Of a DNA stretch of 64,000 bases, positions 2,551-37,312 are shown one piece after another (the first letter of the stretch is position 1; each line of letters starts with the position of its first letter). Under the pieces are notes generated by a model. The model saw only the letters and a list, made by a program, of their open reading frames with translations, was not told the DNA's origin and ran no database searches. Origin of the DNA: Comamonas sp. lk (GTDB lineage Bacteria > Pseudomonadota > Gammaproteobacteria > Burkholderiales > Burkholderiaceae_C); assembly GCF_900564145.1 (NCBI RefSeq), contig NZ_UOOB01000001.1, positions 3,784,754 through 3,848,753 of the forward strand. The letters run 5' to 3'. Position numbers and translations under genes: made by a program.

Positions 2551-4197
2551 TCAAGCCTTGGCACCTAGCGTGTTGCTGCGCGGGAGCATGGCGGGGCCGC
2601 CGTTTTCCGCAATCATGTGGGCGCCGGTGCGCAGGGCCACGGCAATGCCGTTGAGCGTGGAGTTGCAGGTGGACGAGGTGGGCAGCACGCCGGTGGAGGC
2701 GAAATACAGGTTTTCGTGGTTCCAGGCGCGGCCGAACTCGTCGCACACCGAGATGGTGCGGTCCGAGCCCATGCTCAGCGTGCCGCAGATATGCTGGTTG
2801 TTGGAAAAGTCGTCGTCTTTGGTGAAGCGCAGATTCGTGCCTCCCATCAGCTCGGCGATCTTGGCAAAGTCTTTTTGCGCGCGCTTGTGACCACGGAAGG
2901 TGTAGTCGTCAATGCTGTAGTGGGCACGGGGCTTTTGCAGGCCCATGGCATCTTTTTCGTCGGCCAGGTCGATGCGGCGCTCGGGATCGGGCAATACTTC
3001 CAGCACGCTTTTCACATTCATTTCACGTGCGGCAGAGTGGCGCAGCTTCTCGGCAAATTCCTTGCCATAGACGCCAGCCTTGAGCAGCGAGTTGGTGGCA
3101 CCGTCCACCCGGGAGATATTGGTGAAGTCCAGGCGGTAAGGCGAATGTTCCGCACGGAAAGTGCCATCGCGCATGGTGTTGATGGAGCTGGGGCTTTGCG
3201 GGCCACGGCCCAGCCACACGTCTTCATCGGCATCAAAGGTCAGCGAGGTGCTAGGGTGGTCCATCAGATGGCGACCCACCATGTCGTTGTCGTTGGCAAT
3301 ACCGTTCTTGAACTTGTCGCTCTTGGACAGCAGCAGCAGGCGGGGCGACTCGATACCGTTGGAAGCCACGATAAAAGTCTTGCCCGTCACGCGGTGAACG
3401 TTTTTGTCGGGGTCGTAGTAGTTGACGGCAATGATGCGGCCCTGTGCATCGTGCTCCAGCTGGAACACATTGGCGCGCACCTGCAGCTTCACGCCAACCG
3501 CCAGTGCCTGCTGCACGGCAATGCCGCCGTGGTATTGCGCATCGATGGGGCAGATAGGCTGGCAGCTGTTGTTGCCGCAGCAAGGCGGACGGCCGTCAAA
3601 CGAGCGGCTGTTGCGCGCTACCGTGTTGGCCACCACGTTATAGGTACCGGCCAGGCGCTCGCGCACGCGCTGCATGGCAAAAGGCTCGGCCACTGGGTCC
3701 ATGGGGAAGGGCTTGCTGCGGGGCGATCCGGTTTCGGTCGAGCCGCAGACGCCCATGATTTCTTCCGCTTCCTGGTAATAGGGCTCCAGATCGTCGTAGT
3801 CAAACGGCCAATCCACACCCACGCCGTACAGCGACTTGATCTTGAAATCACCCGGCACATTGCGCCATGCGTGCGCAGCCCAGTGCCAGCTGGTGCCGCC
3901 TACCTGGCGGATGTACTCGGCCTTGTAGGGATAGGGCCCGGCCTGGACCAGGTGATTGTTCTCTTCGGGCTTGTAGATGGGGTGTGGTGCCGTATCCAGC
4001 GAGGGATAAGGCGACATCCAGTCGCTGCGGCGCGGCGAGTTGCGAAAACGCGAGACGATTTCGCCACGCTTGACATGATCGCCGGCTTCCAGCATGAGCA
4101 CGGAAGCGTCGGCCTTGGCCAGCTTGGTCGCCAGCATGGCGCCGATGATGCCGGCGCCGACGATGACGTAGTCGGCAGATTGTGTAGATTCAGCCAT
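2551..4197 (-). CDS. GMC-family FAD dehydrogenase, catalytic subunit
   Basis: 548-residue flavoprotein, likely a quinone-linked gluconate- or polyol-dehydrogenase large subunit. The N-terminus carries the FAD-binding GxGxxG (VIVGAGIIGA, residues 11-20) followed by LEAGD at the end of the second strand. The C-terminal GMC region has HICGTLSMG and the motif TSSTCNSTLNGIAVAL. A cysteine-rich stretch (PPCCGNNSCQPICP, about residues 203-216) is typical of this gluconate/sorbitol dehydrogenase branch. It has no signal peptide of its own and would be co-exported with the small Tat subunit encoded 39 bases upstream. The operon order small-large-cytochrome supports the assignment; gluconate, 2-ketogluconate, sorbitol or another sugar acid are all possible substrates. 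Confidence 0.93.
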   Translation of the reverse strand: MAESTQSADYVIVGAGIIGAMLATKLAKADASVLMLEAGDHVKRGEIVSRFRNSPRRSDWMSPYPSLDTAPHPIYKPEENNHLVQAGPYPYKAEYIRQVGGTSWHWAAHAWRNVPGDFKIKSLYGVGVDWPFDYDDLEPYYQEAEEIMGVCGSTETGSPRSKPFPMDPVAEPFAMQRVRERLAGTYNVVANTVARNSRSFDGRPPCCGNNSCQPICPIDAQYHGGIAVQQALAVGVKLQVRANVFQLEHDAQGRIIAVNYYDPDKNVHRVTGKTFIVASNGIESPRLLLLSKSDKFKNGIANDNDMVGRHLMDHPSTSLTFDADEDVWLGRGPQSPSSINTMRDGTFRAEHSPYRLDFTNISRVDGATNSLLKAGVYGKEFAEKLRHSAAREMNVKSVLEVLPDPERRIDLADEKDAMGLQKPRAHYSIDDYTFRGHKRAQKDFAKIAELMGGTNLRFTKDDDFSNNQHICGTLSMGSDRTISVCDEFGRAWNHENLYFASTGVLPTSSTCNSTLNGIAVALRTGAHMIAENGGPAMLPRSNTLGAKA

Positions 4198-4236
4198 GGT
4201 GTTCTTTGTGGGGTATTTGTTGTTATGTGCTGCGCA

Positions 4237-4773
4237 TCAGGCGTGAACAGGCTGCAACTTGAGATCGAACCTCGTGGGATTAGCGCTCCAGCTGCCATAC
4301 ATGCCGTAGGCATAGGTGGGCGGCTTGAGCTTGTCCGAGACCACTTGTGCATTGAGCGCAAACTCATAGGCCACGACCTTGGCTTGCGTGCCTGCACCAG
4401 CAACGCCCAAATACCAGGCTTGCATGAGCTGAGCGGGAACGCCAGCCAGTTCGGGCTTCTCGGCCTTCAGACGCTCGTTAAGCTGGGCCAGCGGCACTTT
4501 CTGGCCGTCAACCCATTGCCACAAGGCATCGACCTGCGCAGCAAACTGCGCATTCACGGCTTGCAAGGCCGTCTGCATGCGGGCCCCTAGCCTGGCGTTC
4601 AAGTCACTGCGCTCCGTCAGATAGCTCGACAGCGCCATGAAACGGCTGGCGTCCGTAACGGGCGCCGCCGCCCAGCTCCAGGGAGCCAATTGCACGGCGC
4701 CAACGGCTAATGCGCCCCCCAGCAGGTGCCGGCGTTGCAGGCCGGGCAAAGAAAAGTGAGTCATAGATGTCAT
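4237..4773 (-). CDS. Small Tat-exported subunit of the FAD dehydrogenase (sorbitol dehydrogenase family)
   Basis: About 178 residues. The N-terminus has twin arginines (LQRRHLLGGALAVGAVQLAP, residues 12-31) followed by a hydrophobic stretch and AAAP, as in Tat-exported small subunits of gluconate/sorbitol dehydrogenases (the FAD-SLDH or gluconate dehydrogenase subunit 3 type). It probably acts as the export chaperone and third structural subunit of the complex. The C-terminal part (YLGVAG...VVAYEFALNAQVV...PPTYAYGMYGSW) matches that family. The first gene of the operon; the start at MTSMTHFS is preferred, with a second ATG at 4764 as an alternative; neither has a strong ribosome-binding site. 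Confidence 0.85.
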   Translation of the reverse strand: MTSMTHFSLPGLQRRHLLGGALAVGAVQLAPWSWAAAPVTDASRFMALSSYLTERSDLNARLGARMQTALQAVNAQFAAQVDALWQWVDGQKVPLAQLNERLKAEKPELAGVPAQLMQAWYLGVAGAGTQAKVVAYEFALNAQVVSDKLKPPTYAYGMYGSWSANPTRFDLKLQPVHA

Positions 4774-4912
4774 GGTGGGATGTTGTCGTTTGAATGGATG
4801 CCGCACACTGCCCATTGGTCGGCAAGCACCCACGCTTACGCGAAGGACGGCGCTGCAGCTTTCACTTCCACGCTCGGCCGTTTACAAGCCGGTCAACGAC
4901 TACAAAAATCGC

Positions 4913-5139: not shown

Positions 5140-6066
5140 GTGTTAGACCGTTTGCAAACCATGCAGGTGTTTTTGTCCGTAGCACAGGAAGGCGGCTTTA
5201 CTGCCGCAGCACGCCGCCTGTCGATGACGACACCCCATGTCACACGCCACATTGCGGCACTGGAAAATCAATTGGGAACACGTCTGCTGCAACGCACGAC
5301 ACGACGTGTGAGCCTGACCGCCGCAGGCGAGCGCTATGCAGTCCGTGTGCGTGAAATTCTGGAAGCGGTGGACACGGCCAGCGCAGAAGTGCAAAGCAAG
5401 ACCAGTGCGCTCAGCGGCGTGCTGCGCATCGTCGCGGCCCCATCGCTGACCGATGCGCTGGTATCTCCGCTGGCCGCTGCCTTTCGCGAGCAATACCCAG
5501 GTATCTCGCTGGATGTGTATGTGGACGCACATCCTTTGCCCGATCTGAATCGCTACGACCTGGGTTTTTTGCAGGTGCCTGAGGGCTATGACTCCAGCAT
5601 CGTGGCGCGCACGCTGTCCACCTCCGAAGCCATACTGTGTGCGTCGCCCGCCTATATCGCCCGCCATGGCCTGCCGCAGACGCCTCAGGAACTGGCACAG
5701 CATATGTGCGTGCTGCGCCGCCCCGCAGGGCTGCATCGCGACAGCTTCAGCTTGTGGCGCAGCGATCAAAAAATGGATGAGCCACCGTCACATGACATTG
5801 AGGTGCAAGCCGCCATCACCATCAATCAGACCGCCAGCATCTTGCAAATGGTTCTGGACGGCGCAGGCATCGCCACCTTCACCATGGATTCAGCACGCCC
5901 CTTCCTGAACCAAGGCGTGCTCGAACAGGTTCTGCCAGGCTGGATTACGGGGCGCTACTGCGTATTGGCCGCCTTGCCGAGCCGCAAACACCTGCCCGAA
6001 CGGGCCAAGGCCTTTCTGGACTTTGTGTTTGCCGCCCATAAGGCGCAATTGATTGACCGCTGCTGA
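5140..6066 (+). CDS. LysR-family regulator of the divergent dehydrogenase operon
   Basis: 308-residue regulator of the CrgA/DmlR branch of LysR. It opens LDRLQTMQVFLSVAQEGGFTAAARRLSM, followed by the recognition helix PHVTRHIAALE and the wing RTTRRVSLTAAG. The remaining about 220 residues form the effector-binding domain. I place the start at GTG 5140 because the LDRLQTMQVF opening is conserved in this branch and AAAGAGG lies upstream; a frame extending back to 4990 would add 50 unrelated residues over the operator palindrome. Divergence from the dehydrogenase operon and the LysR box between them suggest it controls that operon and itself. Confidence 0.88.
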   Translation: MLDRLQTMQVFLSVAQEGGFTAAARRLSMTTPHVTRHIAALENQLGTRLLQRTTRRVSLTAAGERYAVRVREILEAVDTASAEVQSKTSALSGVLRIVAAPSLTDALVSPLAAAFREQYPGISLDVYVDAHPLPDLNRYDLGFLQVPEGYDSSIVARTLSTSEAILCASPAYIARHGLPQTPQELAQHMCVLRRPAGLHRDSFSLWRSDQKMDEPPSHDIEVQAAITINQTASILQMVLDGAGIATFTMDSARPFLNQGVLEQVLPGWITGRYCVLAALPSRKHLPERAKAFLDFVFAAHKAQLIDRC

Positions 6067-6376
6067 GCAGAGTTCAAATATCCTCGAGGCCGGTAGAAAT
6101 CCGGTCTCGCCTTTGGTGCAAAACACTTCATAGACAACAGAAACAGAGGCATTGCATGCACTGCTTCTTCCATGGAGAGTTCGCTGAGTGCGAACCACTA
6201 CTACATGGCAATCTACTTGCTGGAAGTGTTCGAACCGATATCAAGCCAGCTAGATAAAGCTGCACCCAGAACACATGTAAAAATACCCGCGCGGAGAGCT
6301 ATGCAGATGTTCTCTGATACTGGAAGTGGTACTGAGGCATATAGCCTCAGCACAGGCAATTAACACATTTCAAAAT
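6067..6376. other. Gene-free stretch after LysR gene
   Basis: 310 bases between convergent genes. Two hairpins are visible: GAGGCCGG/CCGGTCTC at 6086-6108, just past the LysR stop, and CTGAGGC/GCCTCAG at 6332-6350, just past the end of the barrel gene. Neither is followed by a good T run, so both are only possible terminators. GC content falls from here rightwards. Confidence 0.5.
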
Positions 6377-7429
6377 TTACCATTCATAGCGAGCATACAT
6401 GCTTGCCAGTTGTACGGAACTTTCTTTTGTGTAATGCAAGCCAACGCCCGCTTGAAAATTTTTCTGCGGCATCCAGGACAAACTCAGCATTAGATTTTTA
6501 AATTTCATGCTAGATATGGAAAATCCAAAATCTTGGTAACGAAAATCCATGTTGACCCATGGCACCACTACATTGCCCAGACTGTAAGCCCCAACAGAAA
6601 AATTATCGAATGAATCATGCCTTACACCGATGTTGGTTAATACAGGCAGCCTCATGGTTGTGCTTTTATAATTATATCGCCCTGTCAACGCCAGATTATC
6701 TCCAGCACCATAAATGCTCCCCCCTTGAACGGATGCATTATAGGTTCTATCGCTGTAATGGATAGTGGAAAATCTTAATTGGCTTAGCAAGTTTTCAACT
6801 CTTGCGTTGAATGCCAAAGGTCCTAATTGATAATCCGCTGAAAAATTCAAACCCCATCCCCAGCCTGAATCGTCCTTTTCGTTTCGAAGAATGCCAAATG
6901 ATCTGGTTCCAACCCTATTAAGCGTTCCTCTCAGAACACCTGTTTTACCTTTAACATTAATATTTAAATTTGACTCTCCATAATGAAAATCATGGATTGA
7001 AAAAATATGTGGCTCCAGGCGAATTTTAAAATTCTCTGAAAATTTAATATCTTTTTTTACAGTGAACTGCGTTGAATGAAGGAAATAATATTTCCCTTCC
7101 AAAGAATAACTACCTTCTGCTTTTGGAATTTTAATTCCATTTGCCTTCGCCGCAACGAACACCATGTTCCCATTACCCCAGAAATATCCTTGCAACTTCT
7201 GCGATATGTCGAATTCGGCATCTAAATAATTTTTTGATACACCGGCTGAAATATTAAAATTTCCAGCAATATTATCAGTTGTGGCCTTTAACTCTTTACT
7301 CTTCCACTGCTCGGGATAAAATAAGTCTGCAGTTGATTTATGCTCTCCACCTGCATAAAAAGTTTGCGCATGACTTGTTTGCAGAAATACGGAAAACAAG
7401 ATGAAAATAGATATTTTAAATCTATTCAT
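6377..7429 (-). CDS. Predicted small outer-membrane beta-barrel protein, unknown function
   Basis: 350 residues with a clear signal peptide (MNRFKISIFILFSVFLQTSHA, cleavage before Q22). The mature part is rich in alternating aromatic/polar strands and ends in YARYEW, the aromatic C-terminal signature expected of an outer-membrane barrel. I do not recognise a named family. It is strongly AT-rich (the 60 bases from 7381 hold only 13 G or C), unlike neighbours. It follows the large lipoprotein gene by 71 bases on the same strand, with a terminator-like hairpin between. A role in export, anchoring or partner binding of that lipoprotein is only an inference from adjacency and shared base composition. 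Confidence 0.72.
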   Translation of the reverse strand: MNRFKISIFILFSVFLQTSHAQTFYAGGEHKSTADLFYPEQWKSKELKATTDNIAGNFNISAGVSKNYLDAEFDISQKLQGYFWGNGNMVFVAAKANGIKIPKAEGSYSLEGKYYFLHSTQFTVKKDIKFSENFKIRLEPHIFSIHDFHYGESNLNINVKGKTGVLRGTLNRVGTRSFGILRNEKDDSGWGWGLNFSADYQLGPLAFNARVENLLSQLRFSTIHYSDRTYNASVQGGSIYGAGDNLALTGRYNYKSTTMRLPVLTNIGVRHDSFDNFSVGAYSLGNVVVPWVNMDFRYQDFGFSISSMKFKNLMLSLSWMPQKNFQAGVGLHYTKESSVQLASMYARYEW

Positions 7430-7458
7430 AATTGATAATTTTTAGATTTTTCAAATAA

Positions 7459-7484
7459 AATAGGGGGTTTTATAACCCCCTATT
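7459..7484 (-). terminator. Hairpin between lipoprotein and barrel genes
   Basis: AATAGGGGGTT (7459-7469) pairs perfectly with AACCCCCTATT (7474-7484) around a 4-base loop. On the minus strand the stem is followed by TTATTTGAAAA. It begins 17 bases past the lipoprotein stop and likely reduces read-through into the barrel gene. Confidence 0.65.
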
Positions 7485-7500
7485 ATTTACCGCAATGGAC

Positions 7501-9516
7501 TTACCTCAGAGAAAATTCACGACCATTGACTTTGATGACACCCGATTTAATATCACCAATAAGCTGGCTGCCTTCGTAAATTTGGCCACTAAAATTGTCG
7601 AAATCAAAATCATTGACCTTGTACAAGCCATGATTAGAAGCGATTTGGATACTGTTGGCGCACAGTTTTTTACCATCCTCTGCAGGGAAGCAGTATTTAC
7701 CGCTTGCAGATTCAGTCGCATTGATTGTTGCAATCAAATTGTACAGTCGCAGCGTTGAACTCAGGGTATTCGCACTATTTCGAGCAATATTGAGTTCGTA
7801 CTGATCAGCGGTAGCACCAGCACCAAGGCCAATGCTGCCATTGATTTCAAATTGATCGAAATCCTTTCCAGCGTATTCTGCAGAAGCGTAATTACCCTTG
7901 ACTGCCAAAGAGGCTGGATAAGCAGTACCGCTACGCATCAGTTTCCCTTCGCTAGATCTAAAGGTAAATGTCTCCAGTGCATAAGCATTGTTTTTCACTG
8001 CTACCTTAGAAGTAATAGCACCCTTAAAGGAATCGCCCTTTGAGGTTAGCAGAGTAGAATCGCCAGAAAAATCAACGATGCCATCCGCATTGGGTTTCAG
8101 AACGGCATTCTTGAGGGTGACTTCGGTATTCTTGCTACCGCTATAGGCCTTAAATTTGCTGTCAACAGCAAGGGAAATGAGCGGATTCTTGTTCCAGCCC
8201 TTACCAGGGGGATTGGCCGCATCATATTTAAGCGTCAAATTCAGATCAGATTCCTTTTTGGCATCAAGCAACCTGTTTCCAACAAATGTGGCGACCGTAT
8301 AATTTTTTCCATCTACAACTGCAGTCGCTGCCTGGACAGAAATTTTACCGGAAATTACGCCGCCAGAGTTACTACCACTGAGAATGCGAATGGCTTCTTT
8401 TTTATTATTTGGCGTAACAGTCCAGTTAGACCCTTGATCACAAGTGATTTCGGAAGCAGAGGAGATTTGGCAATCATTGACAAAGCCATATGCTTGGTTA
8501 ACGATGGCATAAGTACTCATGCTGGTCAAGTACTTATAATTGCCACTGAGATCATCATCCAAGAATTTAATGATGGAATCAGATTCCTTGACTTTGGCCT
8601 CGAGCAAATCGAAGAAGGCACTTTCGGATGGTGCAGGCGGCTTGGGTATTGTGATCTCTGGCGTAGTAGGAACGGCTTTCTTAATAATGTTCAAAAGAGG
8701 ATTATCACCTACGAGTGCAGCAAGTGCGTCATCAGCCGATTTCCATTGAGCACCTACAAATACCTCTAGCTTTGACAAGCTACCCGATGCAACATCCTGA
8801 GCGACCGAGTTTATTTTTTCAAGTTGGCACTTGATAGGATCTGTTTCGATTGCGCTGACGCAGCCTTCGCTCTGGCTGGAGAATCCAACCAATGCATGCA
8901 TGAGCTTTGCAGATTCTTCAAAGCCTGGCTTGGACAAGTCATTAATAGATGTAATGGGCTTGATGGTAAATGGATCAACACCAGCCAATTGTTTGGCCAG
9001 ATTTTTACCATATGTCATGGCCTCTGCACTAAAGCCATTTTTTGCAGCATAGGTGACGGCGGCCTCGGTGAAGGGATTCACCATTCCTTGCGCTTTCTCT
9101 CCCTCTTTGGGCTTCTCAACGAAGCTGCGCATTTTCATGCCAATAGGTGCTTTTTCAAACACGAATTCACCATCTTTTATTTTCAACTCATTCAGATACT
9201 CAGTATTGGCATCCGCAACAACTTCGATAACAAAAGGACCTTTTCCAGATTCAACGTCAAACGCAAAAGTACCGTCGGGATTGGTTCGAACTTCTAGAGG
9301 TTTAGTTGTGATTTGTTTGGTAAGGTCAGTGCTCTCATAAACCTTAACAATGGCATTTTTCATAATGCCTTTTGCTGCAGTACCTGTAAATGCAACGGAT
9401 GAAGCAACAGGAGTCGTTCCTCCTCCACTGTTACCGCCGCCTCCCCCACCACCGCATGCAACCAGTGCTGCGGCAGCCAAACTCGCGAAGACAAATTTAG
9501 ATTTTGTATATTGCAT
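7501..9516 (-). CDS. Large glycine-linker lipoprotein, unknown function
   Basis: 671 residues. The signal peptide ends in a lipobox (LVAC, lipidated Cys21), followed by a flexible linker of seven glycines, N, S and three glycines, as in surface or outer-membrane lipoproteins. Residues about 40-115 (AFTGTAAKGIMKNAIVKVY...NPDGTFAFDVESGKGPFVIEV) resemble a carboxypeptidase-regulatory-like beta fold found in other bacterial lipoproteins. The middle is helical, then a proline-rich hinge (about 290-305), and the C-terminal half is beta-rich (GGVISGKISVQAA; FSGQIYEGSQLIGDIKSG). Cys pairs occur near 212/223, 349/360 and 614/622. It is AT-rich like the barrel gene. GAAAGG precedes the start. Function unknown. 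Confidence 0.78.
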   Translation of the reverse strand: MQYTKSKFVFASLAAAALVACGGGGGGGNSGGGTTPVASSVAFTGTAAKGIMKNAIVKVYESTDLTKQITTKPLEVRTNPDGTFAFDVESGKGPFVIEVVADANTEYLNELKIKDGEFVFEKAPIGMKMRSFVEKPKEGEKAQGMVNPFTEAAVTYAAKNGFSAEAMTYGKNLAKQLAGVDPFTIKPITSINDLSKPGFEESAKLMHALVGFSSQSEGCVSAIETDPIKCQLEKINSVAQDVASGSLSKLEVFVGAQWKSADDALAALVGDNPLLNIIKKAVPTTPEITIPKPPAPSESAFFDLLEAKVKESDSIIKFLDDDLSGNYKYLTSMSTYAIVNQAYGFVNDCQISSASEITCDQGSNWTVTPNNKKEAIRILSGSNSGGVISGKISVQAATAVVDGKNYTVATFVGNRLLDAKKESDLNLTLKYDAANPPGKGWNKNPLISLAVDSKFKAYSGSKNTEVTLKNAVLKPNADGIVDFSGDSTLLTSKGDSFKGAITSKVAVKNNAYALETFTFRSSEGKLMRSGTAYPASLAVKGNYASAEYAGKDFDQFEINGSIGLGAGATADQYELNIARNSANTLSSTLRLYNLIATINATESASGKYCFPAEDGKKLCANSIQIASNHGLYKVNDFDFDNFSGQIYEGSQLIGDIKSGVIKVNGREFSLR

Positions 9517-10275
9517 AGAAATAACCTTTCAGAAAATTATCAAAACATATTAAATTTTATTTATATTCTATGTGACTTTTTTTTACATTTGATTCTTTTG
9601 CAATCTTTTCAATCATCTAAAAAAACTCAAAACGCCATCTAAATCAAGCGCAAAAGCAAAAGTAAGCACTCACATTTATTTCAAGCATTTTCAGAAACAT
9701 GGGAAAAATACAACGATTCGTTAAATGAAATGAAATTTCTTATATTTTGTGCTAAGAAATAAAAATAATCATATGATTCAAATATCGAAAAATGCAGAGC
9801 TTTAAAGTACTTTATTACAAATGATCGCATTGATAAAAAAATGCTATCAGCCGACGCCCATTCGCAAGACAAACTCCTATCTTTTACATCTGTAGTAGTC
9901 AATAGGGAATACCTTTAATTTCCATCTACCTGCACAACAAAGCCCACGCCATATTCGCATGCGTGCATAGATTGGCGTCAGCAGTGAATCGCCTCGGATT
10001 TTTTTGAATCCCTTTGAGCCGTTGGCAATGGCATCTCGGCCTCTGCCAGTGAAGGCCACTGATCGAAACGTGGCGCTTCTGGGATGGCCATCTCGATGTA
10101 GTTGAAGACGTCGGCCCGTGCACCGCTGCTGGTTGCGTAGGCCTGCGATGAAAGTCTGCGACGCCGAACTTTGATGCAAAAATTAGCACCGGGGTGCTCC
10201 CCTTCTGGCACGTCATTTGCTTATAACGACTTCATCGTATGAAACTCGTTCGTTATGAGGACAATTACATAAATC
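9517..10275. other. Long gene-poor stretch with an insertion-sequence remnant
   Basis: 759 bases. The first about 380 are very AT-rich and presumably hold the promoter of the lipoprotein gene; no confident -35/-10 pair could be chosen. A degenerate IS3-type transposase end occupies about 10005-10185. A 73-residue minus-strand reading frame at 9681-9902 has no recognisable features and is not called. Confidence 0.6.
10005..10185 (-). pseudogene. Degenerate IS3-family transposase C-terminus
   Basis: Read on the minus strand, one frame gives KVRRRRLSSQAYATSSGA then RADVFNYIEM, matching the end of IS3-type integrase domains (…RAxVFxYIEMFYN…). The match then jumps to another frame, which gives QKRHVSISGL where intact enzymes have RRHxxxGxLSPxEF. 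So at least one frameshift is present, and the upstream catalytic part is missing. It lies at the edge of the AT-rich cassette. Confidence 0.5.
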
Positions 10276-37114: not shown

Positions 37115-37186
37115 GTGCTGTGCCGCATGGTTCAAAGGTGCGGCGCTTGAAAAGCAGCCTTGCCTGTCATCCATCGGCCCCGCTTC

Positions 37187-37312
37187 AGGGTCCCGCTCTT
37201 CTTCCGCCGGTATGAACCGGATCAAGTTCGTCGGGTTAACCTTGATAGAGCCGTCTTTCGACAGATCCACTTCTGGTCTCTCAGCGCTTTCGCACACCCC
37301 GGAGCAGCAGCC
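37187..37312 (-). promoter_or_regulatory. TPP riboswitch aptamer
   Basis: Reading the minus strand: GGGGTGTGCGAAAGCGCTGAGA matches the P2/J2-3 THI-box start, and GAACTTGATCCGGTTCATACCGGCG matches the conserved pyrophosphate-sensor arm and P4/P5. Between them a P3 extension includes CTGTC-GAAA-GACGG. It is 300 bases upstream of thiC, as expected for thiamine feedback control. Confidence 0.93.

Follow-up and report, generated by a model that had tools for sequence, protein, structure and literature searches.

A 64,000-nucleotide stretch of the Comamonas sp. lk genome (4.9 Mb in two contigs; contig NZ_UOOB01000001.1, positions 3,784,754 to 3,848,753; hereafter the window) carries a pair of adjacent minus-strand genes, the first encoding a glycine-tethered lipoprotein (7501–9516, an open reading frame of 671 residues) and the second a small outer-membrane beta-barrel (6377–7429, an open reading frame of 350 residues). 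We found that the window pair represents a rarely encountered branch of a larger family and not a local oddity, with fixed gene order and adjacency, homology of both proteins between branches, and a lipoprotein whose N-terminal half and C-terminal tail are conserved around an unalignable middle. The first-pass annotation of this DNA had proposed an undescribed two-component surface system here, and the proposal is supported by linkage of the two genes, the property on which it had been staked beforehand, in every one of the 32 strong loci (3 close and 29 distant), together with a confidently predicted barrel fold. While the pairing itself is plain, its purpose is read with more caution: we tentatively favor a surface-lipoprotein system in which the barrel, on recognizing the tail, would display the lipoprotein or dock it.

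Linkage of the lipoprotein and barrel genes

Behind lipoproteins matching that of the window in the N-terminal half only, an initial reading showed a second signal-peptide gene in 10 of 12 loci; the remaining two, L075 and L083, were unclear and had their barrels found later by profile. A barrel profile (A6) made from 10 proteins downstream of such lipoproteins matched 17 of 299 genomes of the family (16 strongly), 1 of 100 relatives (G080), 6 of 399 genomes of the order (G080 included), and 8 of 219 genomes of the class (seven strongly), the samples overlapping by a few genomes. Across the class, this gave 29 distinct strong barrel loci (E 2.2e-16 or better), and in all 29 a long frame ending in the conserved tail lay directly upstream on the same strand, as it did in 19 of the 19 loci outside the seed set. 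The tail follows the pattern [YF]-x-[DN]-G-x-x-x-[ST]-[LIF], with variants D-S, D-Q, G-G, and D-D at the third and fourth places and others at the last two. Two weak A6 matches, in G366 and G824, were set aside, as no such tail-bearing frame was seen there.

The two branches are homologous in both proteins. A profile of seven window-branch lipoproteins, including four database proteins whose context is unknown, aligned over 246 N-terminal columns (E 9e-37) with one built from 12 distant paired members, and the profiles of the last 110 residues scored 22.4, where 100 shuffles reached at most 15.1, so that the tail exceeds its controls; the middle gave no alignment between the branch profiles. 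For the barrels, a comparison of the close branch with the 29 distant members in hhalign gave a probability of 97.4% (E 1.4e-11, score 89.7, 274 columns), against scores of 20.7 for the reversed control and at most 22.2 in 100 shuffles.

The tail also distinguished paired from unpaired lipoproteins. Among 18 more weakly matched lipoproteins, seven were cut off before the C-terminus, including a paired one (L067, in G202), and by pattern none of the 11 readable ones had the tail, although the end of one (L011), FGEGNYVTMG, bears a loose resemblance to it. Among the matches listed, no barrel lay beside any of these 11: the barrel of G080 is on another contig, three members of the genus were searched by profile, and seven of the family do not appear among the family matches, assuming the same genome draw as in the lipoprotein search. 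In this sample, the shared N-terminal domain alone did not predict a barrel and the tail did. A lipobox script applied to 17 loci found the motif in 11, and by eye it was also present in L135 and L107; L141 is damaged and L132 runs off its contig. In L136 (G798), a tail-bearing paired member, a serine replaces the lipobox cysteine (ASGGGGG), and this protein is apparently unlipidated. In L105 (G148), the lipoprotein gene is split between frames beside an open barrel gene, representing either a pseudogene or a sequencing error.

The close branch is rare. A word-based profile search of 5.8 billion proteins, in which scoring was confined to the 7,996 candidates with the most shared words, returned nine clusters of close barrels, one of them 99% identical to that of the window, and both clusters with a named organism were from Comamonas sp. 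One of 52 other genomes of the genus (G046) had the close barrel, and when 399 genomes of the order were searched by profile, the window's own barrel was the sole match, G046 and G143 not being among the matches. G143 belongs to another genus and encodes a full-length lipoprotein with the barrel directly behind it; in all three genomes found (window, G046, and G143) the barrel gene immediately follows the lipoprotein gene, and the neighbors of the pair, read by eye, differ among the three. The lipoprotein and barrel genes overlap in G046 and G143, two of these three. This overlap accounts for MAK[NS]TRS, the N-terminus that the barrels share, as it consists of the last codons of the lipoprotein gene in another frame. 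A reading of this type fits eight of ten barrel N-termini, six of which are known only as proteins, with overlap there a possibility; those of P0003 and of the window do not fit under the pattern tested.

The two proteins and their proposed function

The lipoprotein begins with MQYTKSKFVFASLAAAALVAC-GGGGGGGNSGGG, a lipobox followed by a glycine run. The signal peptide and lipobox (residues 1–21, ..AAAALVA-C21; 9454–9516, minus strand), read from the sequence and aligned with homologs of other genomes, precede a glycine-rich tether (residues 22–35; 9412–9453), which is the polyglycine stretch after the lipid cysteine that had been noted at first pass. The conserved tail, delimited by profile comparison with distant paired lipoproteins, comprises residues 638–671 and, with the stop codon, occupies 7501–7605 on the same strand. 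Two database records, P0005 and P0006, begin at residue 52, 51 codons late, which hides the signal peptide and lipobox; lipoprotein surveys may therefore miss this gene. An AlphaFold2 (AF2) model of moderate confidence (m11611e5f9532; predicted local distance difference test, pLDDT, 70.7; predicted template modeling score, pTM, 0.49) has a first half of beta-sandwich and helices and a beta-rich second half. Of the beta-rich halves described earlier, only the second is thus retained, and a protein of 671 residues is not the giant it had been called. In a near relative, the lipoprotein is 94% identical and 34 distinct sites differ, with 18 falling inside 50 residues (0 of 10,000 random draws), and differences between the strains represented by P0005 and P0006 concentrate in two blocks, residues 256–299 and 368–402; such clustered change fits exposure to selection or recombination. 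The barrel differs from another database record at three sites.

Neither protein was recognized, in agreement with the first reading: the lipoprotein had no Pfam family at E ≤ 10 and no NCBIfam family above cut-off, and the barrel no Pfam family at E ≤ 10 and no NCBIfam match. The barrel ends in tryptophan, the kind of aromatic residue that had been predicted, and its AF2 model (m7a4d922e15ee) folds confidently (pLDDT 82.3, pTM 0.80), where failure to fold had been named as grounds for rejecting the system. The model lists 16 strands, and a strand number of about 14–16 is probable; strands begin at residue 22, and the rest is limited to short loop helices, with no separate periplasmic domain. 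The model and a VIA alignment, both of a single chain, have the fold of a monomeric beta-barrel, which by itself shows no function.

We infer tail recognition and surface display because the lipoprotein has conserved ends and a variable middle and because the barrel is dedicated to it. In the arrangement that we tentatively favor, the glycine-tethered lipoprotein and its barrel would be made together as one unit, the lipoprotein would reach the outer membrane by the Lol route, and the barrel would recognize the C-terminal tail and permit surface display of the variable middle, or hold the middle there. The unit would then work as a small counterpart, lacking TPR, of a surface-lipoprotein exporter and its cargo. 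It is conceivable, and on balance unlikely, that the family represents a distinct export route, in which a minimal barrel lacking TPR and POTRA domains reads a short tail at the C-terminus and carries the matching lipoprotein, or in rare cases an unlipidated cargo, to the surface in scattered lineages across the class, with the cargo middle changing fast.

Several observations weigh against tail recognition and display. The nearest folds to the barrel model in fold comparison are the small-molecule channels OmpG, CymA, and FadL; the barrel lacks TPR, POTRA, or any other periplasmic domain; and its presumed lumen side, with sides assigned via hydrophobicity, is not more conserved (p 0.40). The tail might be no more than the final strands of a beta domain. 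The kinship of the two barrel branches was not evident in every comparison, as the first 10-member profile gave a weak result and single-sequence scores were not separated from reversed controls. Finally, among the 17 loci whose neighbors were inspected (13 order and class loci fell outside this inspection), 4 have a gene for a solute-binding protein or permease close to the pair: TctC in L074, SBP_bac_3 in L079 and L080, both of one genus, and BPD_transp_2 in L084.

These transport genes led us to lower our estimate for export slightly and to raise slightly that for uptake, in which the lipoprotein, at the surface or the barrel mouth, would capture a substrate and an OmpG-, CymA-, or FadL-like channel would admit it without TonB. 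This rival has to be taken as real because the nearest folds are channels, and we regard it as a close one, if rather doubtful: the transport neighbors are of different kinds, with no recurrence of any one from genus to genus (the other loci were read by eye and not family-tested throughout), conservation is not biased toward the lumen, and at Pfam E ≤ 10 the barrel belongs by sequence to no porin or FadL family.

A histidine kinase gene is nearby in 4 of the 17 loci (L075, L078, L081, and L083), accompanied in three by a LuxR-type response regulator, which possibly indicates regulation. Kinases, strict pairing, and a flexible glycine tether would also suit a structural or sensing pair that monitors or shapes the envelope, with the tether or tail threaded through the barrel. 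RcsF is threaded in this manner through its outer-membrane protein partners, with which it is known to form complexes. We consider this improbable for the present pair, as the lipoprotein is far larger, its fast-diverging middle better suits an outward-facing function, and most inspected loci showed no kinase. Type II secretion genes adjoin the pair in three loci, namely L074 (gspE, gspD), L084 (gspF, gspE, gspD), and L085, where the pair lies between gspE and gspF, and tgt, queA, or recG occur near some other pairs. No single partner recurs throughout, and therefore we draw no firm function from the neighbors.

Base composition and possible mobility of the window pair

The pair is flanked by a LysR gene and by a gene for a Glycos_trans_3N protein, which we take to be ybiB-like. 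Open reading frames and base counts confirm two adjacent minus-strand genes richer in A+T than their surroundings: the pair has 41.8% G+C against 62.1% in the remaining window, and by part the values are 37.9% for the barrel gene, 44.3% for the lipoprotein gene, and 27.6% for the 409 bases upstream, with 61.1% for the window. Exactly 13 of the 60 bases from 7381 are G or C, and the A+T-rich stretch as a whole, at 41.3%, is near the lowest in the window, where the minimum at equal length is 40.7%; the only 1-kb steps below 50% are those starting from 6001 to 9501. The A+T-rich upstream region (9517–9925, minus strand) presumably holds the promoter, and a promoter scan of it gave nothing above chance. 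Between the two genes lies a hairpin resembling an intrinsic terminator (7459–7484, minus strand), with an 11-bp stem followed by a T-rich tail and a fold of −17.4 kcal/mol (z −2.45), possibly an attenuator.

The description of the pair as an AT-rich cassette holds for the window's branch and fails for the family. Of 14 relatives' loci, those of G046 and G143 had a pair G+C 9 points below that of the flanks, and L084 and L085 one 6 points below; in the remaining 10, the difference stayed within 2.5 points, pair limits being approximate in L075 and L083. Low G+C therefore marks the window's branch and, more weakly, two gsp-adjacent pairs.

On the upstream side of the lipoprotein gene, the degenerate 3' end of an IS3-type transposase gene (about 9985–10169, minus strand) was identified from protein and DNA similarity. 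A run of 27 residues (10089–10169, minus strand) shares 67% identity with a transposase end (E 2e-9), DNA similarity extends to about 9985, and two relatives of the remnant have Pfam rve domains; the 63-residue frame, scanned alone, matched no Pfam family, and the remnant had no match among plasmids. The remnant reported at first pass is real and on the side named relative to the lipoprotein, its "left border" being the right one in plus-strand coordinates. From composition and sporadic occurrence, the unit looks like a recent acquisition in this genome, with or beside an IS3-type element. Neither a plasmid nor a phage origin of the pair was indicated by matches on plasmids, in phage records (searched with the lipoprotein), or in viral contigs (searched with the barrel), and nothing meaningful pointed to an anti-phage role.

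Low G+C, the IS3-type remnant, differing neighbors in G000, G046, and G143, and carriage by only 1 of 52 other genus members would be expected if two unrelated surface genes were merely co-inherited on a mobile A+T-rich cassette. We find this very improbable, as 29 distant loci, whose flanks vary and whose G+C is usually normal, retain the order and adjacency, and as the genes overlap in close relatives.

Elsewhere in the window, a TPP riboswitch (37182–37311, minus strand) exceeds the Rfam gathering score, and a GMC oxidoreductase gene (2551–4833, minus strand) adjoins a FAD-SLDH subunit gene, probably encoding a membrane-bound sugar or polyol dehydrogenase.

Relation to known systems and significance

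Slam, or type 11 secretion (T11SS), systems are defined by a DUF560 barrel with TPR (PMC8406197, PMC12282271), and their cargo is TbpB-like. The mode of action that we propose for the present pair is theirs, and the pair resembles them in that the gene for an outer-membrane barrel adjoins one for a lipoprotein that combines a variable part with a conserved C-terminal part. However, Slam kinship, raised in the first-pass annotation, was not upheld, as the Pfam scan (E ≤ 10) found neither SlipAM/DUF560 nor TPR in the barrel. The paired lipoproteins share a tail of ~34 residues, and no eight-stranded TbpB-type domain was recognized. Members of the new family are mostly lipidated, and one apparently is not. 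The lipoprotein, with its beta-rich C-terminal half in a model of moderate confidence, had fHbp among its comparisons with the PDB set only at E 0.43–0.62.

The barrel resembles monomeric barrels of the OmpG, CymA, and FadL type in fold, but has no detectable sequence relation to them (Pfam, PDB sequences), and its pairing with a lipoprotein is strict in the genomes found. The PgcA non-heme domain of Geobacter sulfurreducens (PDB 9i0d) is another of the closest known counterparts; the window protein differs in that its sequence has no CXXCH heme motif, and it had no sequence match in the PDB set. PorV of the type 9 secretion system (T9SS) gave a poor root-mean-square deviation, and a T9SS-type C-terminal domain was not established for the tail; T9SS components were not searched for. 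Membership in the Slam, TbpB, autotransporter, porin, and FadL families gave nothing usable by sequence in Pfam, NCBIfam, or PDB. Other matches fell below cut-off and were not used: NF058595 (E 0.077; a relative, E 0.041), TIGR04526 (the lipoprotein of one relative; E 2e-5, with 23.7 bits where the cut-off is 150), DUF5723 (the barrels of two relatives; E 0.027 and 0.06), CarboxypepD_reg (one relative; E 0.048), and FABP and fHbp (E 0.2–0.6).

We found no description of this lipoprotein–barrel pair in the open-access full-text literature, a coverage from which subscription journals are mostly absent. The delivery of lipoproteins to the Gram-negative surface is largely unsolved beyond Slam-type systems, and a small barrel strictly paired with a lipoprotein that has a short shared tail would constitute a simple, testable system. 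The family also provides a search rule, the tail with a downstream barrel, for proteins that Pfam and NCBIfam missed in the members scanned.

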